A DNA stretch of 64,000 bases. Origin: Pseudomonadota bacterium. Lineage in GTDB: Bacteria > Pseudomonadota > Alphaproteobacteria > Rhodobacterales > Rhodobacteraceae. The stretch lies in contig JAIUPC010000006.1 of the NCBI GenBank assembly GCA_020161655.1, positions 186,001 to 250,000 of the forward strand. Reading direction: 5' to 3'. Shown piece by piece: positions 12,044 to 40,669 of this stretch; positions within the stretch are counted from its first letter, which is position 1; each line of letters opens with the position of its first letter. The notes beneath the pieces are model-generated. The model saw nothing but the letters and a program-made list of their open reading frames with translations. It was not told the origin of the DNA and searched no databases. The translations under genes and the position numbers were made by a program.

Positions 12044-12044
12044 T

Positions 12045-12085
12045 TCTGGTATCCTTCCAGATATACGCCCCTCGTTGGGGAGGGG
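12045..12085 (-). promoter_or_regulatory. serC leader RNA: two hairpins, the second holding the ribosome site (serC RNA motif candidate)
   Basis: On the minus strand CCCCTC/GAGGGG (12080-12085 with 12068-12073) forms a first hairpin. TCTGG/CCAGA (12057-12061 with 12045-12049) forms a second, whose seven-base loop AAGGATA contains the Shine-Dalgarno sequence, one base before the ATG. A conserved serC RNA motif upstream of serC is known in Alphaproteobacteria; placing this leader in that family is my inference. Confidence 0.6.
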
Positions 12086-12198
12086 TGTCCCACTCGGGGG
12101 GATAATCCGGCGCGATGGCTGGCACAAGCGGGAAAAGAGTCGGGAAGCGTCGCTTCGGCACCGAAATGCGACCGTCGTGTTCACTATCGGAAACCTCG

Positions 12199-39457: not shown

Positions 39458-40111
39458 ATGGGCCTGCGCATCAATGACACCGTGCCCGATTTCACCGCTG
39501 AGTCCGATCAGGGCGAAATCCGGTTTCATGAGTGGATCGGTGACAACTGGGCAATCCTGTTTTCGCATCCGAAGGACTTTACCCCGGTCTGCACCACTGA
39601 ATTCGGCGCCGTGGCGCTGCTTGCCGACGAATGGGCGCGGCGGAAGACCAAGGTGATCGGCATTTCCGTCGACGGGACCGAGGAGCACAAACGCTGGAAG
39701 GCCGACATCGAGGCTGCCGCCAAGACAAAGGCCGGCTTCCCGATCATCGCCGACAAGGGGCTGGCGGTGTCCAAGGCCTTCGACATGCTGCCCGCCGAAG
39801 CCTATCTGCCGGAAAACCCGACGCCGAATGACAGCCAGACGGTGCGGTCGGTCTTCATCATCGGGCCGGACAAGAAGCTGAAACTGTCGATGACCTACCC
39901 GATGAACGTCGGCCGCAACTTCGCCGAGGTGCTGCGCGCGCTCGACGGGTTGCAGACCGCGGGCGCCAACGGCGTGGCGATGCCCGCGAACTGGGAGGTT
40001 GGCCAGGACGTGATCGTGCCGCTTGCCGTCAGCGATGCCGATGCGGAGAAGAAGTACGGCAAGGTCAACAAGGTCCTGCCCTATCTGCGCTACGTCAAGC
40101 TGCCGGACTGA
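39458..40111 (+). CDS. 1-Cys peroxiredoxin (Prx6 type)
   Basis: A 217-residue peroxiredoxin of the 1-Cys (Prx6) type that reduces peroxides. The peroxidatic cysteine lies in HPKDFTPVCTTEFG near residue 48, with the family's TTE pattern, and the long C-terminal dimerisation part is present to residue 217. The start is set by an AGGAAGAGGAG ribosome site. It is followed by a strong terminator and, past that, by the DUF1127/sRNA locus, which in Rhodobacter relatives responds to oxidative stress. Confidence 0.95.
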   Translation: MGLRINDTVPDFTAESDQGEIRFHEWIGDNWAILFSHPKDFTPVCTTEFGAVALLADEWARRKTKVIGISVDGTEEHKRWKADIEAAAKTKAGFPIIADKGLAVSKAFDMLPAEAYLPENPTPNDSQTVRSVFIIGPDKKLKLSMTYPMNVGRNFAEVLRALDGLQTAGANGVAMPANWEVGQDVIVPLAVSDADAEKKYGKVNKVLPYLRYVKLPD

Positions 40112-40136
40112 AACCCGCGCCAGACCTGATCTATCG

Positions 40137-40170
40137 ACCCCGCGCCCCCAAAGGCGCGGGGTTTTCATTT
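40137..40170 (+). terminator. Rho-independent terminator of the peroxiredoxin gene
   Basis: CCCCGCGCC (40138-40146) pairs with GGCGCGGGG (40153-40161) across a six-base loop. A T tract (TTTTCATTTTT) follows at 40062 plus 100, that is from 40162. Confidence 0.9.
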
Positions 40171-40232
40171 TTGGCGCAGGTCGCGCCACAAGCCATGCGT
40201 CCAACGCATAGCGCCTTTGGCGAGACGGTGGA

Positions 40233-40260
40233 TTGTGCAGGTGCAGCATGACGGCCATCT
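40233..40260 (+). promoter_or_regulatory. Candidate heat-shock-type (RpoH) promoter of the DUF1127 locus
   Basis: TTGTGC (40233-40238) and CCATCT (40255-40260) are separated by 16 bases. CCATNT resembles the -10 element of RpoH promoters, and the related R. sphaeroides locus is known to depend on RpoHI/RpoHII. The match is weak in the -35 element, so the call is tentative. Confidence 0.35.
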
Positions 40261-40316
40261 TAGCGTCAACGGCACGGAAAAGATGAATGTGTGCCGGAAC
40301 GAAAGAGGAAATGAAC

Positions 40317-40532
40317 ATGGCTTATGTAGCTTCTCACAGCGCCGCGCGCCCCTCCATCCGGGAGTATGTTGCGAACCTGGTCGCCTCGGTGAAAGAGGCA
40401 AACGCCCGCCGCGCCGTTTACGTCAAGACGCTGAACGAACTCCGCTCGCTGAGCGATCGCGATCTCGCCGACCTCGGCATCGCCCGTCTGCAGATCGAAG
40501 ACATCGCGCTTCAGGCGGCCTACGCGAAGTAA
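40317..40532 (+). CDS. DUF1127 small protein (CcaF1-like)
   Basis: A 71-residue DUF1127 protein. The domain lies in the C-terminal half, with LNELRSLSDRDLADLGIARL near residues 41-60, the usual arginine-rich helical motif. In Rhodobacter sphaeroides a DUF1127 protein, CcaF1, binds RNA and aids sRNA maturation; DUF1127 proteins in other alphaproteobacteria control phosphate signalling. The ATG at 40317 has a good AGAGGA site at proper distance; an ATG six bases earlier is too close. Immediately downstream is an RNA with CCTCCTCCC loops, as at the CcaF1-CcsR locus, so they probably form one transcript. Confidence 0.88.
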   Translation: MAYVASHSAARPSIREYVANLVASVKEANARRAVYVKTLNELRSLSDRDLADLGIARLQIEDIALQAAYAK

Positions 40533-40539
40533 TCGCAGG

Positions 40540-40647
40540 TTTTCTCCGGCCCGACCCTCCCTCGGTGTCGGAAAAAGGCGGGACGCCTCCTCCCTCGTCC
40601 CGCCAAAGACAAGGCCCGCAGCATCAGCTGCGGGCCTTTTTGTTTTC
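40540..40647 (+). ncRNA. CcsR/cuckoo-family sRNA candidate in DUF1127 3' UTR
   Basis: Starting just after the DUF1127 stop, two hairpins expose C-rich loops. The first has stem CCGAC/GTCGG (40551-40555, 40567-40571) with loop CCTCCCTCGGT. The second has stem GGCGGGAC/GTCCCGCC (40577-40584, 40597-40604) with loop GCCTCCTCCCTC, including the nonamer CCTCCTCCC at 40586-40594. A terminator ends it, for a length of about 100 bases. CcsR RNAs of R. sphaeroides (the cuckoo family) have the same anti-Shine-Dalgarno motif and the same DUF1127 neighbour. Only one copy is seen here, where R. sphaeroides has four. Confidence 0.78.
40611..40647 (+). terminator. Strong terminator of DUF1127-sRNA transcript
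   Basis: AAGGCCCGCAGC (40611-40622) and its exact complement (40627-40638) flank a four-base loop. TTTTTGTTTT follows. Confidence 0.95.
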
Positions 40648-40669
40648 GCGGCCATCCGCTCAGGCAGGC

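Follow-up and report, generated by a model that had tools for sequence, protein, structure and literature searches.

A probable second, one-RNA DUF1127-cuckoo operon in a Rhodobacteraceae genome that also carries a several-RNA cluster

The cuckoo RNA family was reportedly set out by Reinkensmeier and Giegerich in 2015. Its members are described as having two to four hairpins, with variable stems and a conserved loop motif (PMC4504443), and two named branches of the family come closest to the locus considered here. The first is the ccaF1-CcsR1-4 operon of R. sphaeroides (CIN1, RF02791), in which a short DUF1127 gene precedes four RNAs; its transcripts are described as arising from an RpoHI/RpoHII promoter and being processed by RNase E (PMC10253847). 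The second comprises the ar14 RNAs (RF02344), including NfeR1 of Sinorhizobium meliloti, for which three hairpins, each with CCUCCUCCC, are described (PMC10746234); silencing through these anti-Shine-Dalgarno motifs is stated for NfeR1 (PMC7143759, PMC10746234). In the window (the whole stretch of 64,000 nucleotides that was analysed) we identified a locus that shares features with both branches and is probably a second DUF1127-cuckoo operon, with one RNA, in a genome that also carries the several-RNA version.

Layout of the locus and kinship of its RNA

The locus lies on the forward (+) strand, as do all features below unless stated otherwise. Its gene (40317-40532) encodes a small DUF1127 protein of 71 aa, a CcaF1-like paralogue by its Pfam match (PF06568, 36.8 bits against a cut-off of 23.3) and its place in our protein tree. 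A likely Shine-Dalgarno sequence, AGAGGA, stands at 40304-40309, and an alternative in-frame ATG at 40287 would lengthen the protein to 81 aa. The hairpins begin 12 nt past the stop codon: hairpin 1 (40545-40572), hairpin 2 (40577-40604; 9-bp stem; z = -4.3 for 40575-40610) and an intrinsic terminator (40611-40646; stem 40611-40638 and a T-rich tail). A terminator scan from the stop codon to the hairpins found none between them, and the gene and the hairpins share the one terminator. This order of DUF1127 reading frame, two hairpins and terminator, which an earlier note on this DNA had proposed, was confirmed, all of it falling within 106 nt of the end of the gene. The short DUF1127 gene thus stands directly 5' of cuckoo-type hairpins, as in the CIN1 locus.

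The earlier note had also described anti-Shine-Dalgarno loops in the plural. This holds for hairpin 2, whose loop CCTCCTCCCT includes the full motif CCTCCTCCC (40586-40594); the loop of hairpin 1 reads CCCTCCC and contains only the shortened motif CCTCCC, so that the plural claims too much. The motif by itself is not rare: in the window CCTCCTCCC occurs once where 1.23 are expected, and across the genome there are three matches to CCTCCTCCCTC and four to a reversed control pattern. Its placement in hairpins is unusual, since among dinucleotide-shuffled versions of 40533-40650 neither a loop with the full motif nor a pair of CCTCCY loops arose (0/3,000 each). As a whole the region folds better than its shuffles (z = -6.4, n = 200); hairpin 1 alone (40540-40580) reaches z = -1.5, with 18 of the 200 shuffles equally good, and is weak evidence on its own.

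At gathering thresholds, Rfam lists no family for the locus. At E-value thresholds the best model is ar14, which matches end to end (model positions 1-123, E 6e-8) a candidate small RNA of about 105 nt (40539-40642) with the ar14 architecture of two hairpins and a terminator; the score of 49.0 bits falls short of the gathering cut-off (58.8). With the CcsR1 model it is 25.8 bits (cut-off 65.3), and further families also stay under their own cut-offs, for example BjrC68 with 29.8 of 39. Among the copies of the RNA, that of Gemmobacter caeruleus reaches 64.6 bits with ar14, above the cut-off, followed by those of the same-genus genome G011 (51.4), locus L132 (44.1) and the same-genus genome G003 (43.5). 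Since the window RNA scores 49.0 and the syntenic Gemmobacter caeruleus copy 64.6, the former lies just outside ar14 in the formal sense and the latter inside it. The stems have also changed in pairs: hairpin 2 of Gemmobacter caeruleus keeps all nine stem pairs of the window, three of them with both bases replaced and one turned into G-U.

Together, the end-to-end match, the Gemmobacter caeruleus score and the paired changes support the assignment of the window RNA to the cuckoo (CcsR/ar14) kind, with a build like that of ar14. The earlier proposal of a cuckoo/CcsR-type RNA with a DUF1127 partner is thereby borne out. That note had counted as refuting a score under the family cut-off together with loss of the loop motif in close relatives; the scores are indeed under the cut-offs, but the hairpin-2 motif is retained in G011, G003 and Gemmobacter caeruleus. 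As in the cuckoo family, the window RNA has variable stems, here in two hairpins, but only one loop bears the whole motif. As in ar14 and NfeR1, two anti-Shine-Dalgarno hairpins are followed by a terminator hairpin. It differs from these RNAs in that its terminator loop is without the motif and its hairpin-1 motif is shortened, so that one full motif is left among three hairpins, against three in an ar14 RNA; moreover, a DUF1127 gene lies directly upstream, and the host is of the Rhodobacteraceae type rather than Rhizobiales. A separate ar14 match at C11:121429 (26.8 bits) was rejected: it is without CCTCCTCCC and by eye resembles a terminator behind an ammonium-transporter-like gene. Elsewhere in the window, on the reverse (-) strand at 12044-12095, there is a serC leader RNA (RF00517; 70.6 bits, cut-off 35).

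Promoter and peroxiredoxin neighbour

RpoH-type promoters have TTG at -35 and a -10 element like CCATNT. Upstream of the window gene we place a putative core promoter, TTGTGC-N17-CATCTT (40233-40261), where TTGTGCAGGTGCAGCAT holds a TGCA-N6-GCAT box at -35 and where the -10, read with its preceding C, is CCATCTT; several related loci have CTATTTT-like -10 elements. A scan of the window promoter region for the sigma-70 consensus found no promoter. The TTG at -35 may be a further likeness to the ccaF1-CcsR1-4 operon, for which RpoHI and RpoHII are named (PMC10253847). An upstream box, ATGCGTCCAACGCAT (TGCG-N6-GCAT; 40195-40209), stands 40 bp before the -35 box.

This arrangement was compared across 120 DUF1127 loci, a sample restricted to DUF1127 loci and chosen by similarity to the window protein (L044 and L045, which have no DUF1127 match, and L036, at the same place as L129, were left out). 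Motif or near-motif hairpins occur within 800 nt downstream in 82 of the 120, three of the 82 being duplicates. The core, with up to two changes, is found at 79/82 of these cuckoo loci, and 77 of the 79 have TG-N8-GCAT 39-40 bp upstream, with four matches at other distances (20 to 120 bp). The longer promoter is commoner at loci with hairpins than at those without, at up to three changes (63/82 against 5/38) as at up to six (80/82 against 10/38). The pattern TTGTGCANNYGCAGCA, which was derived from the examined DUF1127 loci, many of them from the same genomes, matches in 304 of the 394 family-sample genomes against 28 for a reversed control, as counted from the listing; in the window's genome it has exactly two occurrences, before the window gene and before the cluster gene. 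A two-box promoter thus appears to precede DUF1127-cuckoo loci generally, and its conservation points to a common regulator.

The nature of such a regulator may be suggested by the boxes. In the NfeR1 promoter of S. meliloti, the LsrB box TGCA-N6-GCAT is described at -72 to -60 (PMC10746234). The upstream box of the window is one base off this sequence and, with a transcription start near 40268, would begin at about -72. LsrB itself is not favoured: no LysR gene was seen behind trxB when the reading frames in about 1.4 kb of flanking sequence were judged by eye, which leaves only the resemblance of the boxes. VtlR, whose box is given as GCAT-N3-TG-N3-T (PMC7486931), was also considered, and no box of this form was seen by eye in 40190-40265.

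Upstream of the promoter lies a 1-Cys peroxiredoxin gene (39458-40111; PF00578 and PF10417), which the earlier note had taken as the context of the RNA. The gene does adjoin the locus, but it is probably a separate transcription unit, because a terminator-like stem (40136-40163) lies behind it and before the DUF1127 promoter. The linkage is rare. Among the best 30 peroxiredoxin homologues (327 genomes having a match), only two, those of the window and G003, lie within 1.5 kb of a DUF1127 gene. From the DUF1127 side, linkage is found in one of 80 named loci (Gemmobacter caeruleus) and three of 30 family loci (window, G003 and genome G381). With G011, where a match of only 68 residues near the end of the peroxiredoxin sits at a contig end, linkage is seen in five cases. 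A single origin is not supported, because identity to the window peroxiredoxin is 62% in Gemmobacter caeruleus and G381, against 73-81% in the 29 other homologues examined. On the DUF1127 tree the five peroxiredoxin-linked rows need four changes (shuffled mean 4.9; 28 of 500 shuffles as low), with G381 falling elsewhere, so that they do not form one group. The rarity of linkage and the intervening terminator disfavour the peroxiredoxin as an operon partner.

Predicted action of the RNA

By analogy with its relatives, the locus would be transcribed from just downstream of 40261 through the DUF1127 gene to about 40640, as one transcript, and its expression may be induced by stress. Cleavage by RNase E after the stop codon, as in ccaF1-CcsR, would then set free a stable RNA some 105 nt long. 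The loop of hairpin 2, and more weakly that of hairpin 1, could pair with the Shine-Dalgarno sequences of mRNAs in trans and block their translation, and the small DUF1127 protein may tune both the processing and the turnover of RNA. The function of DUF1127 proteins is described as debated, with RNA binding proposed for CcaF1 and protein binding for others (PMC12501420). Pairing to the start regions of seven hand-picked nearby genes gave no convincing target, the best being an mttB-like gene (-17.0 kcal/mol); the peroxiredoxin was dismissed as a target, since loop 2 pairs with its start region at -12.4 kcal/mol and it is not among the best of the seven.

Several findings count against the operon reading, namely scores below both the ar14 and the CcsR1 cut-offs, the shortened motif of hairpin 1 and the weak fold of that hairpin, the terminator loop without motif, the poor outcome of the target search, and two members of the window's DUF1127 group that have no such RNA (L140 and L154, below). 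The hairpins could instead be no more than a 3' UTR that protects the transcript from 3' exonucleases and offers the DUF1127 protein an autoregulatory binding site, with no free RNA. Their start so soon after the stop codon and their use of the gene's own terminator suit this explanation, as does the report that CcaF1 binds RNA and helps to process its own transcript (PMC10253847). We nevertheless consider it unlikely: a stability element has no need of a CCTCCTCCC loop that is kept while the stems vary, and the related ar14 RNA NfeR1 is described as having its own promoter and acting in trans (PMC10746234).

Less probable still is that the locus is a decaying copy, with anti-Shine-Dalgarno loops being lost and little function remaining. 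Of the 22 genomes in the genus, only three (the window's own, G011 at 95% and G003 at 72% identity) give a full-length DNA match, although diverged copies may be missed. The hairpin-1 loop motif is full in Gemmobacter caeruleus and shortened in all three same-genus copies, and the peroxiredoxin-linked copy of G381 has CTCCTCCC in one loop, a degenerate second loop and no Rfam match listed at E 0.01 (locus L147). Against decay, the DUF1127 protein of G011 is 98.6% identical to that of the window, and G003, at 72% DNA identity, retains the hairpin-2 motif and the promoter and still forms hairpin 1 despite changed bases. Two hairpins and a terminator fold in the window, G011, G003 and Gemmobacter caeruleus alike. 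A second, one-RNA DUF1127-cuckoo operon remains our preferred reading.

Relation to the several-RNA cluster

The genome contains seven DUF1127 matches, one of them under the family cut-off, and CTCCTCCC lies within 600 nt downstream of two: the window gene and a gene at C18:95801-95896. Downstream of the latter lie four CcsR1 matches (31.5-43.5 bits) together with eight motif hairpins. In this CcsR1 search 150 of 4443 candidates were scored, and the window copy, which scores 25.8 bits by cmscan, is absent from the matches. The earlier statement that only one RNA appears therefore holds at the window locus but not for the genome. With 43.5 bits or less, the cluster also stays under the CcsR1 cut-off of 65.3; across the family, CcsR1 finds a match at E 1e-5 in 288 of 388 genomes and exceeds the cut-off in 17 of 388.

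The cluster is a nearer counterpart of ccaF1-CcsR1-4 than is the window locus. The latter resembles that operon in its short DUF1127 gene, motif hairpins and terminator, but has one RNA rather than four, a terminator hairpin without the motif, a CcsR1 score far under the cut-off and a DUF1127 protein of another group than that of its own genome's cluster. The groups come from a tree of 107 DUF1127 proteins (of 113 extracted, repeats removed; 71 columns), in which 47 of 104 inner branches are open and the bootstrap is not settled. The window protein groups with those of G011, G003, Gemmobacter caeruleus, L132, L140 and L154 (92/95), and the cluster protein with those of its own genus (97/97). 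These separate groups imply that the window gene is neither the ancestor nor a fresh copy of the cluster gene. We read the locus, on this phylogenetic evidence, as an old lineage of paralogues accompanied by a small RNA; its gain by transfer is possible.

The earlier suggestion that the window locus preserves an ancestral single-copy state, from which the multi-copy locus arose, is hardly credible: small loci do exist (two or fewer motif hairpins in 13 of the 82 by script count), but the multi-RNA cluster is present alongside in this genome, the two genes fall in different DUF1127 groups, 69 of the 82 loci have more than two hairpins, and CcsR1 matches are spread through the family as given above.

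Within the window's DUF1127 group, L132 carries a single motif hairpin and lacks the peroxiredoxin. L140 and L154 are without motif hairpins and without the core promoter, so that the DUF1127 protein can exist without the RNA; their upstream regions still hold TGCATGGCGGG and GTTAGCGC. A further DUF1127 gene beside the operon-borne one may have a parallel in R. sphaeroides, where RSP_0557, a 70-aa DUF1127 gene next to ccaF1, is described as RpoHI/RpoHII-dependent (PMC10673084). The DUF1127, cuckoo and CcsR literature, as far as its accessible portions go and the original 2015 and 2021 papers aside, appears not to mention any genome with a second DUF1127-cuckoo locus of the single-RNA type.

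Tentatively, and with more doubt than confidence, we suggest that a second, old DUF1127-cuckoo lineage has been maintained in Rhodobacteraceae alongside the cluster, under a common two-box promoter, and that its dedicated protein-RNA pair, with one full anti-Shine-Dalgarno loop, could act at a lower dose and under separate tuning, either with the cluster or in competition with it, the boxes being read by a LysR-type regulator. A regulator other than LsrB is proposed because that protein is said to be unique to Rhizobiales (PMC11975290). The locus would unite two named cuckoo branches, its RNA being shaped like ar14 and the DUF1127 gene in front of it being of the CcsR type. As the genome has both a several-RNA and a one-RNA locus under like promoters, simple deletions could tell the effect of RNA dosage from that of the protein partner.

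Among the other loci examined, L043 of the same-genus genome G013 has an exact 400-nt stretch in common with L069 (Defluviimonas sp. SB22). The largest arrays, of 16 motif hairpins within 800 nt of one DUF1127 gene by script count, are those of Wenxinia marina and two Limimaricola species (L061, L064, L088). In genome G071, which has a CcsR1 match of 106 bits, seven CcsR1 matches stand in one cluster behind a DUF1127 gene (L260, 714-1464), where R. sphaeroides has four named RNAs.
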